Assembly (NCBI RefSeq): GCF_032917945.1
Contig: NZ_CP136624.1
Coordinates: 5,518,001-5,582,000 of the forward strand
DNA length: 64,000 nucleotides
DNA from: Bradyrhizobium sp. sBnM-33
Lineage (GTDB): Bacteria > Pseudomonadota > Alphaproteobacteria > Rhizobiales > Xanthobacteraceae
Reading direction: 5' to 3'
Shown here: positions 41,458 through 59,209 of the stretch, piece after piece
Position numbering within the stretch: position 1 is the first letter of the stretch
How the letters are laid out: each line of letters begins with the position of its first letter
Translations under genes and position numbers: made by a program
The notes under the pieces: model-generated
The model's input: only the letters and a program-made list of their open reading frames with translations
Database searches by the model: none
Told to the model about the DNA's origin: nothing

Positions 41458-41501
41458 TGGAGGCCACGACCAGAATTGAACTGGTGTACACGGTTTTGCA
41501 G
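41458..41501 (-). repeat. Attachment-site scar: 3' half of tRNA-Cys
   Basis: Read on the minus strand, the 44 bases begin with CTGCAAA (the anticodon loop with GCA) and then contain a T-arm ACCAG-TTCAATT-CTGGT and the acceptor half CGTGGCC followed by T and CCA. This matches the 3' half of tRNA-Cys, including the four-base variable loop and U73. The 5' half is absent. Such duplicates mark the far end of elements integrated into a tRNA 3' end; the orientation places the element to the right. Confidence 0.8.
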
Positions 41502-41659
41502 CTCGCTAATTCGTGTGCCGGCAAGTGCCGCGCGGTGCCGAATTAACCGTTTCCATTGCTCTTTTGGCCGCGCTTTTGCCTCCCGGTGCTGACTGGTCCC
41601 GCCGCGTGCTGCCTAGTTGGGTAGCAAAAGCGGTAGCAGTCGAACCGCGGGGGGTCGAA

Positions 41660-41764
41660 ATGCATACAGCTTTCATTTTGGTCGGAATTTGCATTGCGCT
41701 GTACGTCGCCATTCGGTTGACGCTTCGATACTACTTTCCGGCGTGGCCTTTGAATACGAGGTGA
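41660..41764 (+). CDS. Single-pass membrane micropeptide (34 aa)
   Basis: The frame starts with MHTAFILVGICIALYVAIRL and is one transmembrane helix with a basic, aromatic end. GGGGG lies upstream of the ATG. Its last eight codons run in another frame through the truncated end of the gene seen intact at 57585, so the natural C-terminus has probably been replaced. Confidence 0.45.
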   Translation: MHTAFILVGICIALYVAIRLTLRYYFPAWPLNTR

Positions 41765-42069
41765 TCGGCCCAGAATAAAAATGGCCCCAGCGCGCGGCGG
41801 TGCGCCGAGGCCATCTAAAGTATTCCCATTTCAGAATGCCAGACGGAGTAGTGGGTACCCATCTGGCGTCCTGATAGAAGCGGGAAAAGGTGGCAACGTC
41901 TGCCCAACAGTGAACATAGCGCGGAAAGCCCGCCAGCCCTGTGTCGGCCCGTCCTTGGGAACCTCCAACCTTGCTGAGAGTCGATTCCATCGCTCCCGGC
42001 GGATCGTGGAGCCAAGCCGGGAGAAAGTGCGGCCCCAGCTTGCGCTGGAAACCTAGCTGGGGCCGTTTT
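41741..42069 (+). repeat. Duplicated small-gene module, copy 1 (truncated)
   Basis: This region matches 57717-58035 over about 320 bases with scattered changes. It starts inside the last codons of the 50-aa gene (FEYEVIG then a stop) and continues through a hairpin, a conserved non-coding stretch and a terminal hairpin: CGGCCCCAGCT (42030-42040) with AGCTGGGGCCG (42055-42065), followed by TTTT. The copy lacks the 5' part of the gene. Confidence 0.8.
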
Positions 42070-42179
42070 GCAAGCGGCCCGCCCAGCGTGAACCGGCGGC
42101 AGCTTGCATCCGAGCAGAGCAAGGAACGATAATCACGGCGCCAGTTTTACCCGTGCACTCAAGACAACGAGGAGCCGCC

Positions 42180-42422
42180 ATGATGATCCGCTTTGCTTGC
42201 GTAGGGGCCTTCTTTGTAGCTTTTGCTCTTGCCGAACCAGCTTTGGCCGGGGGCGGATGTGGAGTCGGGTGCAGCAGCACGTCTGAAGGGGCTTGCGTCC
42301 GTGATGGATGGCAGCAAGGTTTGCCCGTTCGGAACGTGTGCCCGGCCACATCCCAGCCATCTCCGCCTTGCGGCCCATATCACCGATGGAGTCGGCAATC
42401 CATGTCGTGCGTTGTGCGTTGA
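42180..42422 (+). CDS. Small secreted cysteine-rich protein
   Basis: An 80-aa product with GAGGAG upstream of ATG 42180. The signal peptide ends at ALAEPALAG. The mature part has GGCGVGCSSTSEGACVRDGW and PATSQPSPPCGP, with six cysteines likely paired in the periplasm. Relatives I recall end soon after a WR-aromatic motif; here the end differs (RQSMSCVVR), so the 3' end may be altered. Confidence 0.6.
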   Translation: MMIRFACVGAFFVAFALAEPALAGGGCGVGCSSTSEGACVRDGWQQGLPVRNVCPATSQPSPPCGPYHRWSRQSMSCVVR

Positions 42423-42615
42423 ATCGATCGGTTAGCGGCCCGGCAATACGCAACGCGGCCGCCAGTCACTGGAGATTGCCCCAGCCGGGGGCGTGAGGAG
42501 GGATGCAGCCGGGGCGAGCAGAGACTAGGCCCACGTCCGGCTCCTCGTCTGTCCGGGCCGCTGACAAGGGGTAGGCCCGCCAGCGTGAACGCCGGATGAC
42601 TGCGCCGATCAACCT

Positions 42616-42756
42616 ACCCTGAGGTTTTCGGCGGATTCCTTTTGCTAAGACTTCGTAGCTCACTTTTGCGCCCTCATTCAGACTGGTCAAACCTGCTCTC
42701 TCGACGGCCGAGATATGGACGAACTCGTCCTTGCCGCCATTACTCTGCTTTTCCAA
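42616..42756 (-). pseudogene. Cold-shock protein gene fragment
   Basis: The frame reads GGKDEFVHISAVERAGLTSL then NEGAKVSYEV, the second half of a CspA-type cold-shock domain with its RNP2-like motif (FVHIS). After that a one-base shift restores KESAENLRVG, the normal end. The 5' half is missing and replaced at about 42745 by other DNA. Confidence 0.75.
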
Positions 42757-42974
42757 ACGCCCCTAAGAAGATGACGTACGTCGATCTCCATGAACTGATC
42801 GAAAGCGTTCGTCGTTGGCGCAACCGCATCGCGCATCATCGGGCAATTTTTGATAAGGGCCCGAATCGAAAGCTTCAAGATGCAATCAATTTGATTGGCT
42901 GGGTTTGCGGCGACACAAAGAATTGGGTTTCCTCAGTATCCAAGGTTACAGACGCAATAAAACTTAGGCCGTAA
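42757..42974 (+). pseudogene. C-terminal fragment of an Abi-like protein
   Basis: About 70 residues remain: FPNAPKKMTYVDLHELIESV, RRWRNRIAHHRAIFD and later NLIGWVCGDTKNWVSSVS. The RNxxAHH segment and the IGW..D..WV motif are typical of Abi (abortive-infection, AbiD/AbiF-like) proteins, phage-defence or toxin-like RNases. The N-terminus is gone; the upstream DNA is the antisense of the cold-shock fragment. Confidence 0.55.
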
Positions 42975-42983
42975 TGCCGCGAC

Positions 42984-43157
42984 TCAGGCAATCCCAAGCG
43001 GCCGATAGCGCAGCGGTCGATTGAAGTCGGACGCGTCGCTTTCCTTACGACTGTAGGGCTTGCCAATGGGCTTGCCGCTCTCGTCGTGCATCGTCAGAAC
43101 GTCATCCGTCACCGAATAGAATCCCGGCTCTCCGGCGCCTGGATAGTCGGGTAGCCT
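42984..43157 (-). pseudogene. 5'-truncated hypothetical gene
   Basis: An open frame without a start codon encodes GAGEPGFYSVTDDVLTMHDE followed by SGKPIGKPYSRKESDASDFN and a short end. It looks like real coding sequence (a small orphan protein with a TMHDE.GKP motif), but a stop precedes it at 43158 and no start is available. Confidence 0.45.
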
Positions 43158-43247
43158 CTAGCTTCGCCGCCATTCAGGACAGCGAGCCGGGCAAGTATTC
43201 TGCTGGAAGGCTTGCCCGGCTCAGCTAGCCCTAGGTGGTGTGGACAC

Positions 43248-43601
43248 TTACCGCATCCATAAGATGATGGCTGCGAGAGTGACGACGGCACGGTAGTTTC
43301 GGGCAGTCTTTTCGAAGCGGGTTGCGACGCGGCGGAATTGCTTGAGTTTTGAGAAGCAGCATTCCACGAGATGGCGCTGGGCATAGAGATGCTTGTCGAG
43401 CGGATATTTGAGCGCGCGTGACGGATTGTTAGGGATGACGGCGAGCGCGCCTTTGGCAGCGATGGCCTGGCGCAAGTGATCGGCGTCATAGGCCGTATCG
43501 GCCATGACGACTTCGGCGGCCAATCCCTCGATCAATGCGGCGGCTTGCGGTGCATCGCCCTTCTGACCTGCGGTAAGGATGAACCGCACGGGACATCCCA
43601 A
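43248..43601 (-). CDS. IS5-family transposase, downstream frame
   Basis: This is the catalytic C-terminal part of the transposase, with VVMADTAYDADHLRQAI (second DDE aspartate region) and LVECCFSKLKQFRRVATRFE holding the E of the DDE triad in the family's Y-(2)R-(3)E-(6)K-like layout. It is reached from the upstream frame by a -1 shift at the A6 run at 43676-43681; translated this way it continues ...LGRSRGGLSTKIHLAVRG before the first listed codon. Confidence 0.85.
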   Translation of the reverse strand: MGCPVRFILTAGQKGDAPQAAALIEGLAAEVVMADTAYDADHLRQAIAAKGALAVIPNNPSRALKYPLDKHLYAQRHLVECCFSKLKQFRRVATRFEKTARNYRAVVTLAAIILWMR

Positions 43602-43630
43602 GCCTCGAACGGCCAGATGTATCTTGGTGC

Positions 43631-44011
43631 TCAGGCCACCGCGCGAGCGGCCGAGCGCCTGATCTTCAGACCCCCTTTTTTGGCCCCGGCAGCGTGCTGG
43701 TGGGCTCGGACGATGGTGGAGTCGACGATCAGATATTCGAAATCCGGATCATCGGACATCGCCTCAAAGATGCGCCACCAAACACCCTTGACGCTCCATC
43801 TACTGAAGCGACGGAATACACTGTTCCATTCCCCGAACGCTTCCGGAAGATCACGCCAGGGAGAGCCCGTACGCACGATCCACAGCACACCTTCCACAAA
43901 CATCCGATTGTCGCGGCCCGTCGAACCCTTCTGGTCAGGTCGGCCGATGATCAGCGGCGCCATCCGCTCCCACGCCGCGTCGCTCAAAACCAACCGGTCC
44001 ATCACACCCAA
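43631..44011 (-). CDS. IS5-family transposase, upstream frame
   Basis: The N-terminal 126-aa frame starts MGVMDRLVLSDAAWERMAPL and contains the first catalytic aspartate in YLIVDSTIVRAHQHAAG. It ends shortly after AAGAKKGGLK, where AAAAAAGGGGG (on the minus strand) provides a -1 slippery site. The complete transposase is the fused product. Confidence 0.87.
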   Translation of the reverse strand: MGVMDRLVLSDAAWERMAPLIIGRPDQKGSTGRDNRMFVEGVLWIVRTGSPWRDLPEAFGEWNSVFRRFSRWSVKGVWWRIFEAMSDDPDFEYLIVDSTIVRAHQHAAGAKKGGLKIRRSAARAVA

Positions 44012-44080
44012 GGCTGCCTCCCCAAAAGCAGCCTTGAATCTGATTTGCTCCTAAAAAGGAATCCTTAGAGTCCACACCAC

Positions 44081-45046
44081 CTAGCTGTTTAGTCCCGGCA
44101 TTTTCTGGAGCGGATTAAGTTTGAATCGTTCTGGCTGGGAAGTCCAGCATTTGCAGATGTATTCGTAGGGCGTGAGACCCTTCAGGGTCTTCAGCCGCCG
44201 AGCGCAGTTGTAGGCGTTAATGAAGTCGGCAAGGTGTGCTTCGAGCTGATCGTGTCGATCGTAATGGTAGCGTTGGACGGTCGCTTCCTTGATCGTGCGG
44301 TTCATGCGCTCGACCTGGCCATTGGTCCAGGGATGCTTGATCTTGGTTAGCCGATGTTCGATGCCATTCTCTTGGCAGCGCATATCGAACATATGTGTCA
44401 CGTATCTTGCCGTCGGGCCGTCTGCGTAGCGCGGCGGGAAAGTGAACTGGATCCCATTGTCGGTGAGAACCGTGTGGATCTTGTAGGGGACAGCCGCAAT
44501 CAGAGCTTCGAGGAAGGCCGCGGCGGAGGTCCTTCCCGTCTTCCTGACCAGTTGCACGAAGGCGAACTTGCTGGTGCGATCGATGGCGACGTAGAGGTAG
44601 AGCTTGCCTTCAGCGGTCTGGAGCTCAGCAATGTCGATGTGGAAATAACCGATCGGGTAAGCCTTGAACTTTTTCTTCGGAGGCTTGCTGCCTTCGACCT
44701 CCGGCAATCGGCTGATGCCGTGGCGCTGGAGACAGCGATGCAGGGATGATCGCGTCAGATGCGGGATGGTCGGCTGGAGCGCATAGAGGCAATCATCGAG
44801 CGGCAATAGCGTATGCCGCCGGAAAGCGACGATGATCGCCTCCTCCTCGATGGAAAGCACGGTCGATTTGGCTTCCTTCGGGCCTGTCGGGAGATCGGCG
44901 ACAGTCTCGCGCTCCTTCCACTTCGCGACGGTCTTCTGGTTGATCCCGTAGCGCTTGGCGAGCGCCCTCAGGCTCTCTTGACTATTCTGTATTGCTCGAC
45001 GGACTGCCTCCGTCGTGGTGGCGCAGCCGTGTAAAACTTGTCCCAT
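44081..45046 (-). CDS. IS481-family transposase
   Basis: This is an intact 321-aa DDE transposase. An N-terminal helix-turn-helix (LRALAKRYGINQKTVAKW) is followed by the rve core: HIDIAELQTAEGKLYLYVAI (first D), TDNGIQFTFPPRYADG (second D) and HPWTNGQVERMNRTIKEATV (E). The stop codon TAG is not inside the element but is supplied by the flanking CCTAGC duplication, just beyond the terminal repeat. Confidence 0.93.
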   Translation of the reverse strand: MGQVLHGCATTTEAVRRAIQNSQESLRALAKRYGINQKTVAKWKERETVADLPTGPKEAKSTVLSIEEEAIIVAFRRHTLLPLDDCLYALQPTIPHLTRSSLHRCLQRHGISRLPEVEGSKPPKKKFKAYPIGYFHIDIAELQTAEGKLYLYVAIDRTSKFAFVQLVRKTGRTSAAAFLEALIAAVPYKIHTVLTDNGIQFTFPPRYADGPTARYVTHMFDMRCQENGIEHRLTKIKHPWTNGQVERMNRTIKEATVQRYHYDRHDQLEAHLADFINAYNCARRLKTLKGLTPYEYICKCWTSQPERFKLNPLQKMPGLNS

Positions 45047-45102
45047 AGCGCATCCTTCGAATCGTGCGATAAGAATGCACCATCAAAGCTCGGGACTAAA
45101 CA
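44086..45102. mobile_element. IS481-family insertion sequence
   Basis: The 1017-bp element has perfect 12-bp terminal repeats TGTTTAGTCCCG (44086-44097) and CGGGACTAAACA (45091-45102). The six bases CCTAGC flank it on both sides (44080-44085 and 45103-45108) as a target duplication. It abuts the IS5-type element. Both used the same CTAG site, so the order of insertion cannot be told from the sequence. Confidence 0.9.
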
Positions 45103-45103
45103 C

Positions 45104-45286
45104 CTAGCCCTCTTCCCGCGCAGCTCTCGCTACCGCCTTCGCCATCTCCAGCGCAGTTTCTCGGTCCAACGTTTCCGGCCTGAGCCGCCGGGAAGGAAGG
45201 TCGTCGAAATAAAAGAACTGGCTGGGCCGATCGTCCCGGAATCGAGGCCTCGTGTTAGCTTGCGGACGGCCACGACGTCGAGCTAT
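45104..45286 (-). pseudogene. Small Arg-rich gene that appears to have lost its start codon
   Basis: The open frame encodes ARRRGRPQANTRPRFRDDRP, then SQFFYFDDLPSRRLRPETLD and ALEMAKAVARAAREEG. The position where MARRRGRP would begin reads ATA instead of ATG, and no other start lies upstream before a stop. Its own stop codon falls inside the IS481 target duplication, so the element landed exactly at the gene's end. Confidence 0.4.
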
Positions 45287-45340
45287 GGCAACTGGATCGG
45301 CAGATGGGGACGGTCAAGGCACAGGGCGAGCGCGATAGCC

Positions 45341-45700
45341 TCACGCTTGCCGTTCACGCGCCTTGATTTCAGACTCGGCTTGAAGCCAGAACTCCAGGTG
45401 GCGGCTTGCGGGGCAACCGTTTTGCTCCCAGAGTTCCCGAGCGCGTGCTTTGATCTCTTCGTGCGTCCGGTGAGTGGCGGACCGTTGCCTCAAACCCTGC
45501 CTCAGCTGCTCCACCCAGCCCCGTAGCCGCTCTATGGTCGTTTGGTCAGTGAGAGTCGAGGCGATCCGACTCGCTTGTTCGATCTTGCGTTCTAAGTTCC
45601 CGAGGATCTTCGCTCTGGTCCATCGACCATCTCCGTCCAAGTAAGACGTTTCTGGCCAAAACTGGTTCAACTCGCAGCGGATGGAACATGCAGCCCCCAC
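45341..45700 (-). CDS. DUF2934-domain small protein
   Basis: This is a roughly 119-aa helical protein. The C-terminal part, EEIKARARELWEQNGCPASR and HLEFWLQAESEIK, is the DUF2934 signature; the N-terminal part is a coiled-coil-like stretch around KILGNLERKIEQASRIASTL. The start is uncertain: the frame opens with a GTG at 45700 and has no ATG. Function unknown. Confidence 0.65.
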   Translation of the reverse strand: MGAACSIRCELNQFWPETSYLDGDGRWTRAKILGNLERKIEQASRIASTLTDQTTIERLRGWVEQLRQGLRQRSATHRTHEEIKARARELWEQNGCPASRHLEFWLQAESEIKARERQA

Positions 45701-45874
45701 GAAAAATCATTCTCGGCGAAATGCGGTCGTCGGGCAGCCCTACCCCCGATGCTGGGGCCGACGAAACCATTTTTCTAGCTCGACGAAGTCACCCGGAAAC
45801 GAACCAGTGCTCCCATCGCCCCTGATCAAACAACGGGGTTTGATCATGTATCGGGCGGAAACCGGAGGCTTCCC

Positions 45875-46051
45875 ATGAAGCATCTAATAGTGTCCGCAAT
45901 TGCAGCCGTTACCCTTCTCATTGCTGCAACCACCATGCTGTGGTCGCAATCACCTTCGACCGAGCGTCATGCCGCCGCTACAGTCATAGGTCATTGCAAG
46001 AATTTCCACAGCCTGACCGGAGCAAAAGCTTCCGAACTACTGCCTTACTAA
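45875..46051 (+). CDS. Small secreted protein, possibly frameshifted
   Basis: The product of 58 aa has an N-terminal signal-like segment, MKHLIVSAIAAVTLLIAATT, followed by SQSPSTERHAAA. Homologues I recall continue with SLQELH...; here SLQEF is found in the +1 frame near 45990 and the present frame reads HCKNFHSLTGAK, so a one-base indel is likely. CGGAGG lies upstream of the ATG. Confidence 0.45.
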   Translation: MKHLIVSAIAAVTLLIAATTMLWSQSPSTERHAAATVIGHCKNFHSLTGAKASELLPY

Positions 46052-46328
46052 GATGGGGGTTTCGCTTCACTGAAGCGCGGGTCGGACTGCCCTCGCCTTA
46101 TCTTGGCAGCATAAACCCATCAGCGTGAACCGGCGGGCCTCGATTTCGTGAGGATCAAGCGAACTGATCCCGCAGCATTGCTCCCGGCTCGCCGCCGACA
46201 CGTTGTTACTGACCCTATGGAAGCGTCCAAGGGATGGCTCTCAAGCGAACTCAAGCCACCTGATGAGCCGAGTCGGAACGATTGTCGGGGAAACACATTG
46301 CCGTGGCAACGCTCCAGAGATCCCTCGC
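46052..46328. other. Intergenic stretch with a recurring GC hairpin motif
   Basis: I see no supported gene. A variant of the AGCGTGAACCGGCGGGC hairpin motif, also present near 42074, 42573 and 56042, lies at about 46118-46137. Confidence 0.4.
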
Positions 46329-46412
46329 ATGGATTGCACCTCCCTCGCCCTCACCGCCACCGGATTCGCCCTGCTAATCGTGTCGTGTGCCGCTGCGCTG
46401 GCGCTGCATTGA
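46329..46412 (+). CDS. Single-pass membrane micropeptide (27 aa)
   Basis: The frame MDCTSLALTATGFALLIVSC then AAALALH is one hydrophobic helix. A weak AGAGAT precedes the ATG. It is followed, 11 bp after the stop, by a perfect hairpin. Small size makes the call tentative, but the gene-plus-hairpin unit recurs in this island. Confidence 0.4.
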   Translation: MDCTSLALTATGFALLIVSCAAALALH

Positions 46413-46423
46413 AAGCAAAAATG

Positions 46424-46445
46424 GCCGCAGATTGCTCTGCGGCCC
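46424..46445 (+). terminator. Hairpin after the 27-aa gene
   Basis: GGCCGCAGA pairs perfectly with TCTGCGGCC around the loop TTGC. No clear T-run follows, so termination efficiency is uncertain. Confidence 0.6.
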
Positions 46446-47197
46446 ACCGACTAAAATAATTCTGCCGTGTTGAAATCGCCGCCCTCGGTGCTTGGATACT
46501 AAACCTCAGCTCTGTTTCTGTTTCATTTCGTCGCTACCCCGTATGACTACGGGAGCGTTGAATTATGCGCCGGCTCGCCGGGAACGATCGCGGGCGGTGC
46601 GCATTGGCCCCACCGCGTGTCCGTGGAAGTAGCGGCACGCGGTTCGGGCGGCCCCAGTCGAGCTTGCCTGGCCCAGGCTGGGGCCATCTTCCAACCGCAA
46701 TTGGACCTCGGGGGCAGTGAGGCCCGGGACCGAACCGTGCCAGCCCGCTTGGTGGTTGGCGGCCTGATGTAATAAGTTCGGGTCAATTGCACCCGGTAAG
46801 GTGGACGACAAAAGTTCATGCAACGAGCGCGTTCCGTTCCTCCGTGATTTTAGCCATTCCGTATTTCTGCTTAGGCCACTGAGCCCGGAAACCGGCACTA
46901 GTAGATCGGCTCATTTCGAGAATGCGGCACCACACCGCGTGGGCGTCATCCAAGCAGCCGCACGATCACCGCCGCCTTCACCTCGATTATCTCAACGGGA
47001 GCCTGCAGACCAACGGGAGCCTGCAGACCAACGGGAGCCTGCAGACCGCGGCTGCTGGACAAGCGAGTCAAAAGCGGTCACGTATACATCAGTATCATTG
47101 AATGGCCGGGCGTGATCGGTTTTATGGTGCCGCAAGGGTCCTTGACGGGCCACCGGGTCTTAGGGCTCGCGCGCTTGTCATCCACCTCGTTTGCTTA
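46446..47197. other. Region without a recognisable gene, with an 18-bp tandem repeat
   Basis: No frame looks like a known family. Three perfect copies of an 18-bp unit (CAACGGGAGCCTGCAGAC) lie at 46993-47046. In one frame they encode repeated REPADQ, but no clear start or family supports that. The rest seems a patchwork of degraded DNA. Confidence 0.45.
46993..47046. repeat. Three perfect 18-bp tandem repeats
   Basis: CAACGGGAGCCTGCAGAC occurs three times without spacers at 46993, 47011 and 47029. Not a CRISPR: there are no spacers and the units are direct neighbours. Confidence 0.85.
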
Positions 47198-47232
47198 CCC
47201 CTGCCGACTTCACCGGCAGGGGTTTGCGTTTG
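47198..47232 (+). terminator. Strong Rho-independent-type terminator
   Basis: CCCCTGCCG (47198-47206) pairs with CGGCAGGGG (47214-47222), followed by TTTGCGTTTG. It has no recognisable gene directly upstream, so it probably belongs to a deleted or unrecognised small gene. Confidence 0.7.
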
Positions 47233-47339
47233 TGGTCCCTGCATCCAAACCCACGTAGAACCCCGCTGGTGGATCCATGTTCAATCGTGGTCCGCGGGGG
47301 ATAAAATCGCCATGCCGGCGTGAGCCAGCCGGCTTGAAT

Positions 47340-47414
47340 TCACCCGAGTCTTAGATTTTCCGCGGACGTTTTGCCCCGGTTGCTCATTTCTTCGTAGCTC
47401 ACCTTGGTACTCCC
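47340..47414 (-). pseudogene. 3' fragment of a second cold-shock gene
   Basis: The last 24 codons read STKVSYEEMSNRGKTSAENL then RLG and stop, the C-terminal end of a CspA-type protein. Upstream the frame continues into unrelated sequence. Together with 42616-42756 this shows cold-shock genes were repeatedly broken in the island. Confidence 0.65.
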
Positions 47415-48043: not shown

Positions 48044-48078
48044 CCTACAACCGCTGGACGTTTCGCGTCGGCAGCGAC

Positions 48079-51080: not shown

Positions 51081-51203
51081 TTAGCGCTTGACCGGGACGC
51101 CGTGGGCCGACGTTTGCGGGTCGGGCTGCGCCTGCGCAGGTGCGGGGTTGTTGGCAGCGATAAGCAGCAAGCCCACGCAGGTTTGAACACGAAGATTTTT
51201 CAT
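51081..51203 (-). CDS. Small secreted peptide upstream of the SGNH gene
   Basis: The 40-aa frame has AAGGAG before the ATG. Residues 1-27 (MKNLRVQTCVGLLLIAANNP..) are a signal peptide with a cleavage site after APAQA; the mature part is about 14 residues, QPDPQTSAHGVPVKR. It is 50 bp upstream of the hydrolase start and in the same direction, so it may share the transcript. Confidence 0.55.
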   Translation of the reverse strand: MKNLRVQTCVGLLLIAANNPAPAQAQPDPQTSAHGVPVKR

Positions 51204-52776: not shown

Positions 52777-52854
52777 CTAGCACACCACAGCCGCTACCAA
52801 GGCCGCTACCAGCGTCAGAAACACCACGGTCTGGTATTCATCCATCAGCCACAT
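52777..52854 (-). CDS. Single-pass membrane micropeptide (25 aa)
   Basis: MWLMDEYQTVVFLTLVAALV then AAVVC: one transmembrane helix with a short acidic N-terminus. GAGGG lies before the ATG, and the gene follows the fragment that ends at 52867 by 12 bp. Tentative because of its size. Confidence 0.45.
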   Translation of the reverse strand: MWLMDEYQTVVFLTLVAALVAAVVC

Positions 52855-52866
52855 CGCGCGCGGCCC

Positions 52867-53315: not shown

Positions 53316-53320
53316 GGCAT

Positions 53321-53352: not shown

Positions 53353-53904
53353 AGGATGTCCCACGATCTCAAGCTCCACCGGTCGGGCAAGGGCCGCGAG
53401 CGCCCGCGCCGCTTTGTGGGTGGCGTCATGATTCCAGCAACCTTTGTGGCTCGGGTTAGAGCCGGGGCGGTTGTGGCAAGCGCCGCCCTGGCTTGCTATC
53501 TAGAAGCCAGCGAGCCACTCCCGAGCTTCGCAAGCCAACTGCTCACCCGGAAACAGGCACGCGTCCCATAGAGCCGGATCAGGCGCATGGGTCATCTCCG
53601 GCGGCTGTTGCTTGCCCTTTCGGGGGGCGCTTCGGCGCGTGTACTTGCTCTCCCGCCTGAGTTGCGAGACAGTCCGTGCCGCTATCTGCAGAAAGGCGGA
53701 CCGATGGCTAAGGAAGATTCGATGAGGGATGATGTCGAGGGCTGGATAGCCAGCAACTCAGCGGACTTGGCAGCGACATGGGCGTAATCCCTTCGGGTCG
53801 GGGTGGTACCAGTTTTGGCATCTTGGCCGTTACGGTGCGCAAAACCAAAGTTGGACCGTCCAAATTGGGACGCACAGCGTGCAACCAACTCAGGGAGACT
53901 TCAC
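53353..53904. other. Region with only weak small frames
   Basis: Two frames have plausible starts: a 47-aa frame from 53428 (MIPATFVARVRAGAVVASAA) and a 27-aa frame from 53704 with AAGGCGG upstream (MAKEDSMRDDVEGWIASNSA). Neither matches anything I know. A TACCAGTTTTGG motif near 53808 recurs near 55759. Confidence 0.35.
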
Positions 53905-54585
53905 ATGGGTAAACCGATGTTTCCTTCCGACACTATCGCGTTCAAGGTTTCGACCGCCGGCAACAGCGCAGGGAACGGTGGAAACGGTTACAACGAGGGC
54001 AATATCATCAGCAACCCGAGTATCAAGTTCGAGCCGACCAACAAGGCGGAAGGTGCCGACGTCCACGTCAAAAACGGCGATGACGTTTCCCAGAAGGCAT
54101 ATTGGGACGCCGGCGGCGCGAACGCCAAGGCAGAGGGCGGACCTGCCAAATCGAAAGGCGACCAGGAATCGTACGGCGGTCATAAGAAATCCGACGCCAA
54201 GGCGGAGAAGGATGCCAAGGCAGAGGGCGGACTTGCCAAATCGAAAGGCGACCAGGAATCGTACGGCGGTCATAAGAAATCCGACGCCAAGGCGGAGAAG
54301 GATGCCAAGGCGGAGGGCGGAACTGCCAAATCGAATGGCGACCAGGAATCGTACAGTGGCCATAACAAGTCCGACGTGGATGCCAACACGAAGGCCTATC
54401 AGGAAAACTGGCTCGATGCGGACCAGAGTCAGATGGTGATGGCCGGCATCGGCGGCGAAGGCGGAGACCACAGCAATGCGGAAGGCGGGGATGTTCACAT
54501 CAAGGCTAGTATCGAGACCGCCCACCTGAACGACGTGCTCAACGACTCAAAATACTTCGATGTCGACGATTTCGTGCATGTCTGA
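53905..54585 (+). CDS. Low-complexity protein with 90-bp tandem repeats
   Basis: 226 aa, GGGAG before the ATG. The N-terminal part is Gly/Asn-rich (STAGNSAGNGGNGYNEGNII); then a 30-residue unit with AKSKGDQESYGGHKKSDAKA occurs three times, the last diverged, encoded by 90-bp tandem repeats starting at 54124, 54214 and 54304. The C-terminal part is acidic with DVHIKASIETAHLNDVL. It is predicted disordered and hydrophilic, without a signal peptide or known domain. Function unknown. A terminator follows. Confidence 0.72.
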   Translation: MGKPMFPSDTIAFKVSTAGNSAGNGGNGYNEGNIISNPSIKFEPTNKAEGADVHVKNGDDVSQKAYWDAGGANAKAEGGPAKSKGDQESYGGHKKSDAKAEKDAKAEGGLAKSKGDQESYGGHKKSDAKAEKDAKAEGGTAKSNGDQESYSGHNKSDVDANTKAYQENWLDADQSQMVMAGIGGEGGDHSNAEGGDVHIKASIETAHLNDVLNDSKYFDVDDFVHV

Positions 54586-54613
54586 GTGACGCTTCCGAGG
54601 CCCTGATCAACTT

Positions 54614-54648
54614 GCCCCGTTTCCTCTGCCAGGCGGGGCTTTCTTTTG
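54614..54648 (+). terminator. Terminator after the repeat protein gene
   Basis: GCCCCG (54614-54619) and CGGGGC (54634-54639) pair, with additional CCT/AGG pairing inside, followed by TTTCTTTT. It lies about 30 bp past the stop codon. Confidence 0.7.
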
Positions 54649-54808
54649 GCTGGTTTACGGCCCACTCCTCACTGCACCGTAAACCTACCGCGCGGGAGAG
54701 CCGCGGGGCCGGATGACCACGAGTGCATCGAGGTCGCCGTGAGCGCTGTGGCACTGTCGCGCACAGACCGCGCGCGATAGGCGTCGCGTCGCCTAGCTAA
54801 CATTTGGG

Positions 54809-54892
54809 CTAACCCTCCTCGCCCATCGACCGCTTCATGATGAAGGCCATTACGAGGAAGAACACGAACCACAAGAGGATTATAGGTTCCAT
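54809..54892 (-). CDS. Single-pass membrane micropeptide (27 aa)
   Basis: MEPIILLWFVFFLVMAFIMK then RSMGEEG. An AAGGAG at ideal spacing before the ATG makes this one of the better-supported tiny genes of the island. One transmembrane helix with a cytoplasmic-type basic and acidic tail. Confidence 0.6.
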   Translation of the reverse strand: MEPIILLWFVFFLVMAFIMKRSMGEEG

Positions 54893-55083
54893 TATCGTTC
54901 TCCTTGCGTGAAGGGGCGGATATGAAGCCAACTTATTGTTAGCAAACCTACCCAGGCGTCATACTCTGTGCAGCCCGAGCTGCCCCGGTAAGCAGATCAC
55001 CGACAGGCCATATAGCGGTCGCTGTAGCGTCATGCAGTTCTCGGTTCGTCGGTGTCACGGGCGGGGATTGTTTTCCGCTAACC
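54893..55083. other. Intergenic stretch before the GcrA-like gene end
   Basis: No supported gene; presumably the promoter of the 27-aa gene and the 3' side of the GcrA-like gene. Confidence 0.35.
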
Positions 55084-55596
55084 TCAGCCAACCGGCAGCG
55101 AACCCACGGCAATCCTACTGGAACCTCTGCTAACCCGAAATGCACCGCGCTCGGATTGCGGCAGACCGCTGTCGTATCGCGCCATCCGCAGATGATACCC
55201 GCAGTAGGGAAAGCCTGGCACCGCGGCCTCGCCACAAAACAGCGCCACGGCCTGGTGTACGTCGCTAAGCGGCCAGCGGCATTCGCCGTTATCGAGTTCG
55301 AGTAGCGAGCAGCGCCGCATTTCCCGCGGCGGCACAGTGTCATCGACCGGTGGTGTCGGCTTTGCCAGCATGATCGATGTGACCATTGTCGTGGTGGAAC
55401 TCGGCCGCGTCTGCACCGGTTTCACCTCAAGATGTTTTTCCACGCCGGCCGGCAACAAATCACGGCGGCGCAGCCGTATTGCCTTTCCGCATACCGACGC
55501 GCGCGAGCGGTTCAACCGCCTCGAGATTTGCCCGGCTGATGCGTTCGGCCCAAGGCCGGTGAGCAGGGAGATTTTTTGGGTGGTCCAAGATATCAT
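55084..55596 (-). CDS. GcrA-like cell-cycle regulator homologue
   Basis: 170 aa. The N-terminal region, LTGLGPNASAGQISRRLNRS then RASVCGKAIRLR, fits the GcrA helix-turn-helix (GLSASQIA..LG.SRNAVIGK). The C-terminal part LLELDNGECRWPLSDVHQAV and ALFCGEAAVPGFPYCGYHLR carries the Cys/His motif typical of GcrA. GcrA recruits sigma-70 RNA polymerase to methylated GANTC promoters in alphaproteobacteria. This divergent copy on an island suggests a phage or plasmid origin. Confidence 0.75.
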   Translation of the reverse strand: MISWTTQKISLLTGLGPNASAGQISRRLNRSRASVCGKAIRLRRRDLLPAGVEKHLEVKPVQTRPSSTTTMVTSIMLAKPTPPVDDTVPPREMRRCSLLELDNGECRWPLSDVHQAVALFCGEAAVPGFPYCGYHLRMARYDSGLPQSERGAFRVSRGSSRIAVGSLPVG

Positions 55597-56037
55597 TGTA
55601 AGCCTCGCTAGCTCGCCCTGAAAACTGGGCGAGTATTCGCCATAAGCAGGTGCTCCGACGAGATACGCGCGCGGTCTAAGACGATTTGAACCAATGCGGT
55701 TTTCTCGCCGGAGGCGCGCATACCATGAAAATTGAAACGCCGTTCGGAAAGCCGGCAGTCTGAATGTACCAGTTTTGGTAGTAGTCGGTGGAACGGTTTT
55801 TTAACCTAGATCGAGTGATCGCAGCGATCCCGACTAAAGGCGCGTACACGGCAGAGACGTATTTCGGTATGCCGCGGTTTGCGGTGCCTTCTGGCCCGAT
55901 GAGATGCGTGAAGCCGTCAGAGACGGCATGGCAGAGGCCGGCATAGATGTCGATGACCTGCGCGAGCTGATCCGCAAGCTGGAAAGTCCGGCTCGCGATC
56001 AATAGCTCCGGCTTTAAAGCGTCGCTTTCGGAAACGA
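55597..56037. other. Region with a possible fragment only
   Basis: A frame ending at 56005 reads AFWPDEMREAVRDGMAEAGI then DVDDLRELIRKLESPARDQ. It could be the end of a small helical protein, but no start or family supports it. The TACCAGTTTTGG motif recurs at about 55759. Confidence 0.3.
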
Positions 56038-56041
56038 AAAC

Positions 56042-56117
56042 GCCCGCCAGCGTGAACCGGCGGGCTTCCGCCTATCGCTACAAAAAAAGCCGCCGCTGGT
56101 TAGGGTCAGCGACGGCT
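56042..56117 (+). terminator. Two consecutive hairpins
   Basis: GCCCGCC (56042-56048) pairs with GGCGGGC (56059-56065) around AGCGTGAACC; then AGCCG-CC-GCTG (56088-56098) pairs with CAGC-GA-CGGCT (56107-56117) with one mismatch. The first is the best copy of the hairpin motif also seen at about 42074, 42573 and 46118. Confidence 0.7.
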
Positions 56118-56224
56118 CTCCTTGTTACGAAACCACAAGCTGCGTCAACTGCGGTCCCGTCCCAAGACATCCAACAGGATAGTGGCTGAGCATGGCTAAT
56201 GTTGGATTGCGAAGCCGATCCGGA

Positions 56225-56549
56225 TCAGGCGCATCCGTTGCCCCCGATCCTGACTATCAGCGATTGCTGCGCTTAAGTCGGCGGTCCGTATAGGAGGTAC
56301 AGTAAAAGAACGACCATCGCGGCCATCGCGATGGTCTCCAAAATGATGCGAGGAATCGACCGTTGCATATCGCAACATTTGCCTTCTCAGGTGGTGGTGT
56401 CTGCCCGATAGACAACACAGCGGCTTCCTTCAGCACGAACCGGAACAGGCGGTTGCTAGCCGCGTTGATGCTGGCGCCAGTCATTGTCGCCCCTTTGACT
56501 TGGCGCATTGGAATGACGGCCCCGGCCCCCCAGCTGGGGCCGTTTCTTA
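56225..56549. repeat. Direct repeat unit, copy 1 (with the 31-aa gene)
   Basis: About 320 bases are nearly identical to 58066-58389. Differences cluster in the middle (GCCTTCTCAGGTGGTG here against GCATTCACAGGTGGTG) and next to the final hairpin. The unit contains one 31-aa membrane peptide gene on the minus strand and ends in a CCCAGCTGGGGCCGTTTC hairpin. Confidence 0.85.
56273..56368 (-). CDS. Membrane micropeptide (31 aa), copy 1
   Basis: MQRSIPRIILETIAMAAMVV then LLLYLLYGPPT: an amphipathic N-terminus followed by one transmembrane helix and a PP end. The coding bases are unchanged in the second copy at 58114. AAGG lies rather far upstream, so translation initiation is uncertain. Confidence 0.5.
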   Translation of the reverse strand: MQRSIPRIILETIAMAAMVVLLLYLLYGPPT

Positions 56550-56637
56550 TTTGGATACTGGTGGCGAGGACTGATCGGGAAGGACCTGCAAATTAATTAG
56601 GAACGCGCGGCTGTCAGCGGAGTCAGTTGACGAGATA

Positions 56638-56910
56638 ATGCCGAGTTGGAGTGAAGCGGATTTGAAGCGAGGAAGCATCGATTTCAACGGTGGCACGATC
56701 GCCTGTCTCATTCGTAACCAGTCCGATACTGGGGCGGCGCTGGAGGTGGCCAGCGCCCTCGGCGTCCCGGCGCAATTTAACCTTCTGATCGTTGCTGATC
56801 GCTTGAGGTACGGGTGCACGGTGATATGGCGAATGGAACGCTTGATCGGTGTCAAGTTCCACGAAGCTTATGTCCAAGGGATTACCCCGCCAGAGTTGCG
56901 GACAAAGTAG
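56638..56910 (+). CDS. PilZ-domain protein
   Basis: 90 aa. The frame has RGSIDFNGGTIACLIRNQSD (a variant RxxxR-to-(D/N)xSxxG region), GAALEVASALGVPAQFNLLI and TVIWRMERLIGVKF, the layout of a single PilZ domain. The N-terminal RxxxR of c-di-GMP-binding members is reduced to a single Arg, so ligand binding is uncertain. The gene lies between the two repeat units. Confidence 0.7.
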   Translation: MPSWSEADLKRGSIDFNGGTIACLIRNQSDTGAALEVASALGVPAQFNLLIVADRLRYGCTVIWRMERLIGVKFHEAYVQGITPPELRTK

Positions 56911-57084
56911 CCGGCCCGGCCCTTCTTTTCCCCCATAGTGTAGATTGTGCGCTCGGACAGGCGCGCAAGAGGACGGCTCCGGAACGCGCACTCCCAACTT
57001 CCGAGCCGGAGCCCACCCTCCCGTAAGACAACGGCGCCGTAAAGCTTCCGAAACCGATGCTCCGTATAGAGGGTGGGGCCCGTC

Positions 57085-57258
57085 ATGGAGCTATTTCGAG
57101 CTGAGAAGATTGCCACTGTTCACTACCAATCAAATTATGACTGCCGTTTCTGCGGAGGAAAGCTCACTCTCGTCCGGACAATCGTGGAATCTGAAAGCGG
57201 AGTTGTGATTCAAACGTTTGAATGCCTGCAGTGCGGAGATCACACTTGGACCGCCTAA
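57085..57258 (+). CDS. Small zinc-ribbon protein (57 aa)
   Basis: It starts MELFRAEKIATVHYQSNYDC and has two CxxC pairs, DCRFCGG and ECLQCGDH, enough for one zinc ribbon. Purine-rich GAGGGTGGGG lies upstream of the ATG at 57085. Function unknown; I recall near relatives in many Bradyrhizobium islands. Confidence 0.65.
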   Translation: MELFRAEKIATVHYQSNYDCRFCGGKLTLVRTIVESESGVVIQTFECLQCGDHTWTA

Positions 57259-57285
57259 GCAAGAAATTCTGCTGCTCCTGTTCTT

Positions 57286-57588
57286 TTGAAGGTTTCCTTG
57301 CCCTGGTCCACACCGTTTGAAGACCCGCTTCCGCTTCCGGATGGCCTGCAGCTCCTCACCTTGAGGGATGCCGCCAACTACATCACGAAGCTGTCAAAAG
57401 CCGGGCTCTCCGCGCCCGAATGGCAGGCCGCCATGGAGGCGCTAATCCTCGTTGCAGAGAACGACGGCCCCACGATGTTGGCCCGGATCGGCGTAATGCG
57501 GGCGTTGAATCGTCACGTCGAACGGGTCTTTAATTCCGAGCGCAAAAGTCATCATTGGGGCAAGCGCAAGCTGAAGAGAGACCAATGA
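57286..57588 (+). CDS. Small hypothetical protein coupled to the 50-aa gene
   Basis: About 100 aa: LPWSTPFEDPLPLPDGLQLL, LRDAANYITKLSKAGLSAPE, WQAAMEALILVAENDGPTML and ARIGVMRALNRHVERVFNSE. No known domain. There is no ATG; the best start is the TTG at 57286, without a good ribosome-binding site. Its stop overlaps the start of the next gene (ATGA). A broken relative lies at 49105-49236. Confidence 0.6.
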   Translation: MKVSLPWSTPFEDPLPLPDGLQLLTLRDAANYITKLSKAGLSAPEWQAAMEALILVAENDGPTMLARIGVMRALNRHVERVFNSERKSHHWGKRKLKRDQ

Positions 57589-57737
57589 CCGTTTTTGTCT
57601 ACGTCAACACAAGCAAGCAGGTCGGTGACGTTGAGCACATCAAGGTGTTCGCCACCACGGATGCCGCGGAAAAGTGGTTTGAGGAAAACGATCCTGAAGG
57701 CGTGGCCTTTGAGTACGAGGTGATCGGCGCAGAATAA
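57585..57737 (+). CDS. Small hypothetical protein (50 aa)
   Basis: MTVFVYVNTSKQVGDVEHIK, VFATTDAAEKWFEENDPEGV and AFEYEVIGAE. It is soluble and mixed alpha/beta. It starts in the ATGA overlap with the previous gene, and AGAGAG precedes it. Its 3' end is found again, without the rest, at 41741. Function unknown. Confidence 0.7.
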   Translation: MTVFVYVNTSKQVGDVEHIKVFATTDAAEKWFEENDPEGVAFEYEVIGAE

Positions 57738-58035
57738 AAATGGCCCCAGCGCGGAGGTTCTGCGCCGAGGCCATCTGAAGTATTCCCATTCAACGTGCCA
57801 GACGGAGTAGTGTGGGTACCCATCTGGCGTACCGATAGAAGCGGGAAAAAGTGGCAACGTCTGTCCAATAGTGAACAGAAGGGCAGTCGATTGTTGAACC
57901 CGCCAGCCCCTGCGTCGGTGCCGTTCTTAGGAACCTGCAGCCTTGCCCAGAGTCTATTCCATCGCTCCCGGGTGATCGTGGAGACAAACCGGGAGAAAGT
58001 GGCGGCCCCAGCGCTCTGTCCCCAAGCTGGGGCCG
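57717..58035 (+). repeat. Duplicated small-gene module, copy 2
   Basis: Matches 41741-42069. After the gene's stop come a hairpin (GGCCCCAGCGCG with CGCCGAGGCC), a non-coding stretch of some 230 bases containing GAAGCGGGAAAA and GTGGCAACGTCTG in both copies, and a terminal hairpin CGGCCCCAGC (58003-58012) with GCTGGGGCCG (58026-58035), then TTTCT. Confidence 0.8.
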
Positions 58036-58065
58036 TTTCTCATTCAGATTCCGGCGAGTGGCGGG

Positions 58066-58389
58066 TCAGGCGCATCCGTTGCCCCCGATCCTGACTATCA
58101 GCGATTGCTGCGCTTAAGTCGGCGGTCCGTATAGGAGGTACAGTAAAAGAACGACCATCGCGGCCATCGCGATGGTCTCCAAAATGATGCGAGGAATCGA
58201 CCGTTGCATATCGCAACATTTGCATTCACAGGTGGTGTGGCCTGCCCGATAGACAACACAGCGGCTTCCTTCAGCACGAACCGGAACAGGCGGTTGCTAG
58301 CCGCGTTGATGCTGGCGCCAGTCATTGTCGCCCCTTTGACTTGGCGCAATGGAATAACGGCCCCGGCCCCCAGCTGGGGCCGTTTCTCA
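58066..58389. repeat. Direct repeat unit, copy 2
   Basis: Second copy of the 320-bp unit at 56225-56549, in the same orientation and directly after the terminal hairpin of the module ending at 58035. It too ends in the CCCAGCTGGGGCCGTTTC hairpin. Confidence 0.85.
58114..58209 (-). CDS. Membrane micropeptide (31 aa), copy 2
   Basis: Identical in sequence to the peptide encoded at 56273-56368 (MQRSIPRIILETIAMAAMVV...). It lies within the second 320-bp unit. Upstream bases have changed between the copies while the coding bases have not, which mildly favours a functional gene. Confidence 0.5.
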   Translation of the reverse strand: MQRSIPRIILETIAMAAMVVLLLYLLYGPPT

Positions 58390-58517
58390 TTCAGAAGCGG
58401 GCCAGCTCTGGCCGAGCATGGCTGCCCACTTTATACTCGTGGTCGCGTTGCGCAGCCGCCGATTCTTGCGAGATTAGCGCCAGCGCAGAGTAATCAGATC
58501 AATTGCTGGGAAGGGCG

Positions 58518-58622
58518 ATGTCGGTACAGTTAGACACTCGAACAATTCTGATCGCGCTAGTCGTCGTCAACGCGATTGCCATTGGTCTCTCAGAAATCCA
58601 GCGGCGAGCGCTGGTCAATTGA
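58518..58622 (+). CDS. Single-pass membrane micropeptide (34 aa)
   Basis: MSVQLDTRTILIALVVVNAI then AIGLSEIQRRALVN: one hydrophobic helix with a polar C-terminal end. GGGAAGGG lies directly upstream of the ATG. No hairpin follows at once. Confidence 0.5.
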   Translation: MSVQLDTRTILIALVVVNAIAIGLSEIQRRALVN

Positions 58623-58765
58623 GGATCGTTGCGATGGCGAATCCTACCGGCCCTTTCCTAAGTGATGTTGCCGGTCATTAGCTCCGGCTATATTGCCCGG
58701 TCATCAAGTGGTTTCCAAGTTGTTAATGTATTGGTGGCAAGAATTCTGCTTGAAGGGGCAGAATC

Positions 58766-58918
58766 ATGAAAACCTTCGTTCTGCTTGGAGCGTTCGCCGC
58801 GTCGTATGCCTATGCATCGCCTATGGCGAACGGGAACTGGCAATCGCGCGCCATTGGCTTTGTCTTGGTCTGCATAGTCGCCACTGCTGGCGTGCTGGCG
58901 ATGACGGTCGAGGAGTGA
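58766..58918 (+). CDS. Small membrane protein (50 aa)
   Basis: MKTFVLLGAFAASYAYASPM, then ANGNWQSRAIGFVLVCIVAT and AGVLAMTVEE: an N-terminal hydrophobic segment and a second one at the end, so either a signal peptide plus anchor or two short helices. GAAGGGG precedes the ATG. Unknown function. Confidence 0.5.
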   Translation: MKTFVLLGAFAASYAYASPMANGNWQSRAIGFVLVCIVATAGVLAMTVEE

Positions 58919-59068
58919 ATTCCGATCTCGCCGCCTGGTCGGATTGTACTTTGGCCGCCCGCGTCTCTCTCTTGTAATCAAAGCGCTGCTCAGTCGCGCT
59001 TTTTCGACGGCGGATTTCAGGTTGACGTCGAAAGCTCTCAGCAGTTGCCGCGCTACACTGGCGTCGAC

Positions 59069-59209
59069 ATGGATGATCCGGACCGGCCGGAGATCGAGCA
59101 TTTCGGAAACTGTACTGTCTGCGGCGAGCTAATCGAAATGCGCGGCCTCGCCCAGGTGATGGCGCATATGCACGGCCAGAAACTAGACCCGGCACCGGAC
59201 AGACACTAG
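59069..59209 (+). CDS. Small zinc-finger-like protein (46 aa)
   Basis: MDDPDRPEIEHFGNCTVCGE, then LIEMRGLAQVMAHMHGQ. The C-x2-C pair and later H-x3/4-H (MAHMHG) fit a C2H2-type zinc site. No clear ribosome-binding site. I recall similar tiny proteins next to phage-like genes in rhizobia. Confidence 0.5.
   Translation: MDDPDRPEIEHFGNCTVCGELIEMRGLAQVMAHMHGQKLDPAPDRH

Follow-up and report, generated by a model that had tools for sequence, protein, structure and literature searches.

In integron gene cassettes, small genes and hairpins occur together in changing orders. Among relatives of the strain considered here, Hahn et al. 2016 (PMC5082802) describe for Bradyrhizobium japonicum USDA 110 many short open reading frames, with purifying selection shown for some, together with the small RNAs BjsR1-10, which are limited to the genus and of which BjsR5, 6, 7 and 10 have 2-4 imperfect copies, and the palindromic repeats Br-REP1/2.

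The region examined here extends from 41458 to 59209 of the window, by which we mean the whole 64,000-nucleotide stretch of Bradyrhizobium sp. sBnM-33 that was analysed. An initial annotation described it as a series of tiny genes, several of them followed by hairpins, and suggested that such units are gained and shuffled as cassettes. The seven hydrophobic frames and five secreted or zinc-binding frames that it named are all present at those places. In our reading, which we hold to be likely, this DNA makes up the left part of a genomic island whose cargo comes from a genus pool of microproteins, secreted and zinc-ribbon-like proteins and terminator-ended RNA units, reshuffled by ordinary recombination.

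A genomic island in tRNA-Cys

The window region belongs to a genomic island integrated in tRNA-Cys. The island measures 43.0 kb and runs from window position 41457 to 84518, beyond the end of the window; region 41458-59209 is its left part. Exact direct repeats of 45 nt flank it, at window 41457-41501 and at genome 5602474-5602518. The left attachment repeat, on the minus strand, duplicates 45 nt from the 3' portion of tRNA-Cys, and the second copy is contained in the intact tRNA-Cys at one island end (L111:475-548). The GC content of the island is lower (58.7% vs 62.7%). An open tyrosine-integrase frame, uninterrupted across the join of the two stretches, reaches from L110:19193 to L111:401 and ends 73 bp from the tRNA-Cys gene; searched as two pieces, it yielded the domains Phage_int_SAM_3 and Phage_integrase. 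Furthermore, five of the 19 loci checked (L054, L060, L061, L062 and L069) are empty sites in which the flanking 59-aa gene adjoins an intact tRNA-Cys. The integrase would move the island via recombination between the 45-bp repeats. Two minus-strand insertion sequences lie at 43225-45107, one IS5-like (43231-44084) and one IS481-like (44067-45107), both with copies up to 100% identical elsewhere; the IS5-like transposase is split.

Hydrophobic frames and other small proteins

The region might be mostly decaying debris, made up of truncated genes and chance frames in old islands with little of it expressed, an explanation that we regard as unlikely. The region was scored for ATG frames of 24-52 codons (n = 116) at 17-residue hydrophobicity thresholds of 1.6 and 2.2. 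At 1.6, 11 frames were found against a simulated mean of 2.5, and none of 150 order-3 Markov simulations reached 11; at 2.2, there were 8 frames against 0.15 expected, with a maximum of 2 in 150 such simulations. Markov orders 1-3 were also simulated, in 60 runs each. A Shine-Dalgarno match of at least 4 nt accompanies five of the eight frames that pass 2.2 (0.03 expected), and core DNA of the same genome holds two frames at that threshold in 80.9 kb. The ribosome-binding site of the frame at 54809, rated as good in the initial annotation, reads AAGGAG. Hydrophobic frames with ribosome-binding sites so far above simulation argue against debris.

Conservation of the peptides at the amino-acid level, the check proposed in the initial annotation, was found for two micro-membrane families and several small proteins, whose pN/pS intervals lie below 1. 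The sets comprised related sequences, with copies carrying stops or frameshifts left out. Nine families other than 46329 have pN/pS of 0.28-0.56, values that describe the family and not the window copy, and whose intervals are too narrow because the sequences within sets are related. The opposite-strand frame with matching third positions gives a pN/pS near the in-frame value, and inside its interval for 42180, 45875, 56273 and 57085.

The first micro-membrane family, called 'YFPPDT', is represented at 41660..41764 (+) by a fused copy. Near 41740 a 57585-type gene tail has replaced its C-terminus, and its final residues are an out-of-frame read of that tail. The family occurs without stops at 32 places in 21 of 242 genus genomes, the strain's own included, and its pN/pS of 0.45 (0.29-0.62) has a point estimate below all five other frames. 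The second is a 31-aa single-helix protein at 56273..56368 (-), with another copy at 58114-58209 (-), found at 19 places in 11 of the 242 genomes (again counting its own); ten of these places are weak, with E 0.001-0.01 for one genome. Its pN/pS of 0.56 (0.43-0.70) likewise lies below the point estimates of all five other frames, one of which (0.65) falls inside the in-frame interval. As judged from these substitution patterns, 41660 and 56273/58114 are families of single-helix proteins of about 30 aa under purifying selection, and their intact members would make functional single-helix inner-membrane peptides.

The remaining hydrophobic frames fared differently. The 27-aa frame at 46329..46412 (+) has a pN/pS of 1.14 (0.28-5.51) among five own-genome copies. 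That at 54809..54892 (-), also of 27 aa, is an orphan, present in one of 242 genus genomes, its own. Neither the 25-aa frame at 52777..52854 (-) nor the 50-aa frame at 58766..58918 (+) has a relative in a DNA search of 60 genomes or a peptide search of the compared loci. Finally, the 34-aa frame at 58518..58622 (+) is probably the truncated N-terminus of a longer protein: its nine matches in eight other genomes all fall within frames open for 101-261 aa, and the matching frame in L104 reads on.

Several other small proteins accompany these frames. By their substitution ratios, constraint is seen as well in an 80-aa Cys-rich secreted-type protein at 42180..42422 (+; pN/pS 0.37, eight distinct sequences), in a 58-aa protein with an N-terminal hydrophobic segment at 45875..46051 (+; 0.40, four distinct sequences), in a 57-aa zinc-ribbon-like protein with two Cys-x2-Cys motifs at 57085..57258 (+; 0.50, 13 sequences) and in a 46-aa Cys/His, zinc-binding-like protein at 59069..59209 (+; 0.28, four sequences, all from its own genome). 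Two conserved proteins lie next to one another on the plus strand, one of about 95 aa with an uncertain start at 57301..57588 (pN/pS 0.40), also present in nine Bradyrhizobium plasmid records, and one of 50 aa at 57585..57737 (0.30, 19 sequences), convergent with the RNA candidate A1 described below. A 90-aa protein at 56638..56910 (+), with a second sequence in L035, matches PilZ weakly and falls short of the gathering score. The 40-aa secreted-type open reading frame at 51081..51203 (-) has no relative among the loci compared.

Signs of decay are nonetheless present, and they are what the debris explanation can draw upon: cut copies of cspA, 58518 and 41660 and the split transposase, the pN/pS interval of 46329, which spans 1, and the frames for which no relatives were found, and copies of 57585 and 42180 elsewhere that carry stops or frameshifts, the latter including copies in L034 and L116 whose N-terminus is frameshifted or altered. 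On the other side stand the low ratios of the nine families, albeit a family-level measure, and the copies of two RNA candidates, A1 and U, that are conserved in sequence and fold.

RNA candidates

A1 is a minus-strand unit of about 147 nt with two window copies, 41774..41921 (terminator 41816-41779) and 57733..57882, which score 164.7 and 156.2 bits against a model, R1, that was built with both and so includes them in their own scores. Their folding z-scores on the minus strand are -4.60 and -6.66; the 57733 copy, the only one also folded on the plus strand, gives -2.31 there. At E <= 2e-14, A1 occurs at 31 places in ten of 391 same-family genomes, all of the window's genus, with up to six copies per genome. 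Among named genomes holding the core pattern, the model matches all 11 Bradyrhizobium stretches and none of the 14 others.

In an alignment of 24 copies, 37 of 38 proposed pairs persist in a majority of the sequences and 91% of cells are paired; the pair proposed for columns 43 and 98 survives in two of 24. Covariation is modest: four pairs changed on both sides, a number reached by 78 of 500 shuffles, and the covariation score was reached by nine of 500. The 5' stem is missing from the RNAalifold prediction, and the 41774 copy lacks it in its best fold. Alignment and folding support a conserved secondary structure with an intrinsic terminator for A1, in which the terminator and central hairpin are firm and the 5' stem less sure. 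Four distant relatives share the 5' part and have another 3' half. A1 would be a small RNA of about 147 nt read on the minus strand, whose functional part would be the first 45 nt or so, a stem-loop plus GACGUUGCC..UUUUCCCG, and whose 3' hairpin would end transcription. A consensus scan for sigma-70-type sites found none within 150 nt upstream of the window 5' ends, and promoter-like sites overall are near chance (8 vs 6.2).

With up to six copies per genome in varied surroundings, A1, alone or together with the adjoining segment A2, could instead be a non-autonomous mobile element of the MITE or REP type, and the block of A1 plus A2 does start and end with GGCCCCAGC-type hairpins. This we consider improbable, as inspection of the alignment reveals no terminal inverted repeats for A1 by itself, its G-U pairs and z-scores point to one strand as the RNA, its 3' end resembles an intrinsic terminator and distant copies keep the 5' part only.

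A2 (41949..42068, +), a repeated segment, ends in a T-tailed hairpin at 42030-42065. The second RNA candidate, U, has 11 copies among the retrieved loci and would be a second small RNA, read on the plus strand. The window holds two of these copies, at 56430..56556 (+; z -3.59) and 58271..58397 (+; z -4.43 on the plus strand, -2.70 on the minus strand). Neither A1 nor U matches a family of Rfam 15, as searched over the window at gathering score and over 41400-59300 up to E 0.5. A further unit, 46412-46465 (-), ends at the hairpin 46423-46444 and aligns end to end with BjrC68 (Rfam RF02353), whose consensus has a similar GC hairpin; it scores 23 bits against a gathering score of 39, below the level for membership. 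It shares with frame 46329 a 1.2-kb dispersed block, 46195..47410 (+), that ends in a cut cspA remnant and has copies at 2.01, 3.57 and 3.92 Mb.

Peptides of about 30 aa with one helix and several copies in some genomes, next to such RNAs, recall type I toxins, for which A1 or U would be the antitoxin RNA. In the window, the end of A1 lies 9 nt beyond the fused frame at 41660, and 56273 and U are divergently oriented. We think this pairing very improbable: A1 adjoins a 41660-type frame in one of 24 aligned copies, its 5' part shows no complementarity to 41660-family leaders (mean -17.1 vs -17.8 kcal/mol shuffled), and U occurs in two loci, L117 and L122, that yielded no relative of 56273.

Hairpins, junctions and reshuffling

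GC hairpins are denser in the island part of the window (0.76 per kb in 41457-64000 vs 0.34 in 1-41000), and the five named in the initial annotation (46424, 42030, 58003, 56520 and 58365) all exist. Their placement after tiny genes is another matter. The hairpins at 56520 and 58365 are on the 5' side of 56273 and 58114, which are minus-strand genes. For the hairpin at 46424, the T-run falls on the minus strand, opposite to the direction of 46329. Several hairpins carry a terminator-like T-tail and close other units, and several that recur are part of units of RNA type, namely A1, A2, U and a BjrC68-like one; from their sequence, several resemble small RNA gene ends.

If instead tiny gene and hairpin formed one cassette, with the hairpin as exchange point as in an integron, the same hairpin should follow the gene elsewhere. 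It rarely does for most families: the loci with a GC hairpin no farther than 150 nt from the stop number 8/30 for 41660, 2/15 for 56273, 11/52 for 57585, 2/15 for 57085, 0/4 for 45875 and 2/6 for 59069, compared with 35/300 random stretches. The A1 terminator after some 57585 genes went uncounted here because G-T pairs were disallowed. Only 42180 keeps its hairpin after the stop, at nine of 11 loci.

Shuffling itself is borne out. Two units are copied intact as claimed, 56221-56551 (the minus-strand 56273 gene with U on the plus strand) at 58062-58391 with 97% identity and 47617-48043 at 51385-51809 with 92%, and blocks recur elsewhere, both in this genome and in others of the genus, with their order changed. 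With only insertion sequences left out, 12 of 81 block ends fall within 15 nt of a GC hairpin (4.6 expected, P 0.002); a hand-trimmed version of the test gave seven of 62 (P 0.06). The cassette model, too, predicts this excess, which could come either from exchange at hairpins or from conserved units with terminators at their ends; in our reading such block ends would mostly be ends of conserved transcription units. The clear junctions, by comparison, cut through genes: a cspA remnant at 42606..42741 (-) has its 5' end cut off at 42741 and is uncut in L034 and L115, cspA is also cut at 47410 and uncut elsewhere, and the fusion of 41660 at 41740 likewise falls inside a gene. Because they do so, we attribute the reshuffling to ordinary recombination and not to a dedicated cassette system. 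Unlike integron cassettes, moreover, the island has genes on both strands instead of in one orientation, several hairpins that look like terminators and, as the one integrase found, a phage-type enzyme beside the tRNA. What finds no support is the notion that gene and hairpin travel together, and an integron-like system appears improbable. Within islands, the order of short genes would rather be changed by insertion sequences together with homologous and illegitimate recombination.

Comparison with known systems

We infer from the sequence that the island genes and RNA units are transcribed and translated. In DNA that gene finders usually skip, the analysis provides defined targets, open to testing: two RNA families, both aligned and one of them also modelled in searchable form, and two families of 30-aa membrane peptides whose relatives are spread over the genus. 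It also advises caution with cassette-array readings, since hairpins that crowd between tiny genes can be the terminators of independent RNA units. As a speculation that we put forward with little confidence, islands of this genus may spread multi-copy small RNAs (A1, U and relatives) and single-helix membrane peptides, orphan as well as conserved, as a transferable regulatory layer, in which the RNAs have a fixed 5' domain and exchangeable terminators and the peptides act on host membrane proteins.

The island resembles what is described for USDA 110 in its many short open reading frames, in purifying selection on some of them, in multi-copy small RNA candidates limited to the genus and in palindromic repeats; the Br-REP consensus sequences given there differ by eye from the island hairpins (PMC5082802). 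As a whole, the island is like ICE/IME-type tRNA islands with a tyrosine integrase in its 45-bp tRNA 3' repeat with the intact tRNA at one end, its integrase beside the tRNA, its lower GC and a nearby AAA_25 ATPase and weak HTH_17 match. No relaxase or transfer gene was found among those island proteins, a part of the total, that were searched against Pfam. The island differs from ICE/IME-type islands in its left part, which consists mostly of very short genes and RNA-like units.

Integration of the island at a tRNA-Cys gene

The island status proposed for this region in the initial annotation is borne out by 45-nt repeats, a tRNA-Cys gene, an integrase and a lower GC content, and the island reaches beyond the end of the window. 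In the 9.18-Mb genome, a single contig in which the window occupies positions 5518001-5582000, an exact 45-nt repeat lies at the island's edge at window position 41458 and again at contig positions 5602474-5602518, the latter inside an intact tRNA-Cys gene. The 43.0 kb of DNA between the two repeats has a GC content of 58.7% vs 62.7% in both flanks examined. Loci covering the right part of the island contain a tyrosine-integrase frame that runs uninterrupted from L110:19193 to L111:401 and stops 73 bp short of the tRNA-Cys gene; an AAA_25 ATPase is encoded close by, as is a protein that matches HTH_17 weakly. Other right-part cargo comprises cyclase-domain proteins (61081-63984 and L110:2024-3820), a citrate-type transporter, a GDSL-type protein and a carbamoyltransferase, alongside the AAA_25 ATPase.

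The empty site is represented in 5 of the 19 relatives' loci checked, where a 59-aa flanking gene adjoins an intact tRNA-Cys. Among the other loci, the gap is about 0.4 kb in L065-L067 and L073, and in L119 the tRNA is 6 kb from the 59-aa gene. Loci L053 and L133 carry a second copy of the 45-nt repeat 1.2-1.4 kb off, and an intact tRNA-Cys was not found in the L133 stretch. Since L053, L119 and L133 hold different DNA at the same tRNA-Cys, this site may be an integration hotspot.

Short hydrophobic frames and their conservation

The tiny hydrophobic frames reported in the initial annotation do exceed chance. At a hydrophobicity threshold of 1.6, fixed beforehand, 11 frames were counted vs 2.5 expected, a number reached by none of 150 simulations. 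At a threshold of at least 2.2, picked after an earlier count of the same frames, 8 of 116 short ATG frames qualified vs 0.15 expected (150 order-3 simulations, maximum 2), and 5 of these 8 have a Shine-Dalgarno match, vs 0.03 simulated. Frames at the higher threshold number 2 per 80.9 kb in core DNA of the same genome, 5 per 25.3 kb in the remaining island, and 30 per 400 kb in 20 same-genome stretches with related blocks or insertion sequences.

Four of these small frames, named here by window position, were searched at the protein level in 242 genomes of the genus, the window's own included. The single-helix family of 41660 occupies 32 places in 21 of the 242 genomes, with MDTAAIAITTCVALYVALRFTLRCYFPPDT as a typical member and a leader that is often GAGGGACAGGGAA-like; in the window copy the C-terminal end is missing. 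The 31-aa single-helix protein 56273 has relatives at 19 places in 11 of the 242; at 10 of these places the match is weak, with E 0.001-0.01 for one genome, and these weak matches also align from the start codon onward. Frame 58518 has matches in 9 genomes; it looks truncated in the window, because the 9 matches beyond its own genome sit in frames open for 101-261 aa. Frame 54809 matched only itself in these genomes, and 52777 and 58766 have no relative in a DNA search of 60 genomes and a peptide search of the compared loci.

Pooled pN/pS values with a codon bootstrap, drawn from stop-free matches that cover 75% or more of the query and thus biased to intact copies, are 0.45 (0.29-0.62) for 41660, 0.56 (0.43-0.70) for 56273, 0.37 for the Cys-rich secreted-type 42180, 0.40 for 45875, 0.50 for the zinc-ribbon-like 57085, 0.30 for 57585, 0.40 for 57301, 0.38 for 58518, and 0.28 for 59069 (four copies, all from this genome). 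In these alignments the five alternative frames range from 0.43 to 2.31, and the in-frame point estimate is the lowest in 9 of 9 families, with the closest control frame falling within the in-frame interval for 42180, 45875, 56273 and 57085. For 46329 the value is 1.14 (0.28-5.51), from five copies of its own genome. Decayed copies also occur, with a stop in several 57585-type copies and a frameshift in the 42180 copy of locus L034.

Among the tiny proteins tested (a set without 46329, 51081 and 52777), not one reached the curated cut-offs of Pfam or NCBIfam, and PHROGs gave weak matches only, the best at E 3e-4 for 57085. A 30-aa family member had no plasmid match. Transcription and translation in the region are predictions from sequence.

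Several other features lie among these frames. Upstream of the minus-strand frame 51081, TTGATCCAGATCAA at 51297-51310 resembles a FixK/FNR box. A helix-turn-helix antitoxin-like protein and a RelE-family toxin form a pair at 51806-52546 (minus strand). Three 90-bp tandem repeats (54124-54393) lie within frame 53905-54585; this frame has no match in Pfam, and relatives of it occur in the genus. A short stretch at 59394-59514 has about 10 genome copies at 84-91% identity, and one of about 70 nt at 53427-53499 reaches 94% identity in several relatives. A CCCGCCAGCGTGAACCGGCGGGC-type palindrome recurs in the island, as at 46116-46141 and 56042-56065.

Recurring blocks and the possible role of hairpins

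Further copies of the island's blocks lie elsewhere in this genome, at about 2.0, 3.56-3.60, 3.88-3.98, 4.05, 4.86, 5.35 and 6.18-6.22 Mb, and in relatives their orders differ. Loci L034 and L115 share the order 57301, 57585, the RNA candidate A1, its adjoining segment A2, 42180 and an uncut cspA. The window breaks this order: a junction at 41740 fuses 41660 with a 57585-type gene tail, and cspA is truncated at 42741 and at 47410. The window also carries insertion sequences at 43225-45107 and two local duplications. Plasmids are a plausible route between strains for related small genes, since such genes are found on Bradyrhizobium plasmids; relatives of 57301 occur in 9 of 72,556 plasmid records, all Bradyrhizobium.

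Hairpins are denser in the island than in core DNA, terminator-like sites number 27 vs 17.4 in shuffles (sd 4.3), and the strongest hairpins look like intrinsic terminators. Of 81 block ends, 12 have a GC hairpin no more than 15 nt away vs 4.6 expected (P 0.002), which probably mainly reflects conserved transcription units that stop at their terminators. Exchange of cassettes at the hairpins would equally place block ends there, and its odds have risen because this fuller test, which excludes insertion-sequence rows alone and is the fairer one, superseded an earlier version (7 of 62, P 0.06) in which short hairpin-only, cspA-only and internal-repeat rows had been excluded by hand. Hairpins were also considered as travelling partners of the microproteins, against a hairpin-after-stop background drawn from fetched loci that are themselves island-enriched; for the small proteins compared, they do not accompany the genes elsewhere, with 42180 as the sole exception. 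Of the proposed shuffling of gene-plus-hairpin modules, the recurrence of blocks in new orders stands, the joint travel of hairpins with small genes is seldom seen, and the block ends near hairpins fit both transcription-unit ends and hairpin exchange.

Candidate structured RNAs

The repeat present at 41774-42068 and again at 57733-58048 consists of two units, as many matches in the genus stop at query positions 144-153 and others span the second part alone. The first unit, A1, is a minus-strand RNA candidate of about 147 nt (41774-41921 and 57733-57882) with a 5' stem-loop, conserved GACGUUGCC..UUUUCCCG, a hairpin at its centre and a terminator with UUUUUAUU after it. Among the matches listed, those covering at least 100 nt occur in 18 of 242 genomes; a larger tally of 33 genomes also counts short matches confined to the terminator stem or to A2. 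A covariance model places A1 at 31 sites at E <= 2e-14 in 10 of 391 family genomes, all of the window's genus, and weakly (E up to 0.001) at 13 more, including two other genera. The A1 core pattern occurs in 25 stretches of named genomes, and the model matches 11 of 11 from Bradyrhizobium and 0 of 14 others; B. valentinum LmjM3 is among the genomes with A1 copies. In the alignment of 24 of the 29 distinct matches (excluding L206, cut at the locus end, and four distant relatives), covariation support is modest, and confidence is lowest for the 5' stem.

Around these 24 copies, a 57585-type gene lies within 25 nt in 8 and a 41660-type frame beside 1, while 10 have none of eight tested gene families inside 1.5 kb. 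Some distant A1 relatives are preceded by a GGTTCACGCCGG stretch similar to the CCCGCCAGCGTGAACCGGCGGGC-type palindrome. Pairing of A1 with 41660-family leaders was sought and none was found. A single coding gene across A1-A2 was rejected, as none of the reading frames is uninterrupted throughout the 14 translated copies; on the plus strand, one runs through several copies, and indels disrupt it in others. A1 has no match among 50,697 phage records, nor the A1-A2 block among the 72,556 plasmid records, and the exact core patterns of A1 and U, a plus-strand RNA candidate, are absent from IMG/VR contigs.

Other elements likewise end at hairpins. A2 ends at hairpin 42030 or 58003, and as a structured RNA it was set aside, having no significant fold past its hairpin (z-score -1.10). 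Hairpins 56520 and 58365 are the ends of U, which has 11 copies in the loci compared, two of them in the window (56430-56556 and 58271-58397); most conserve a GCGCATTGGAATGACGGCCCC core preceded by a variable-loop hairpin. Hairpin 46424 ends a minus-strand element that bears a weak likeness to BjrC68.
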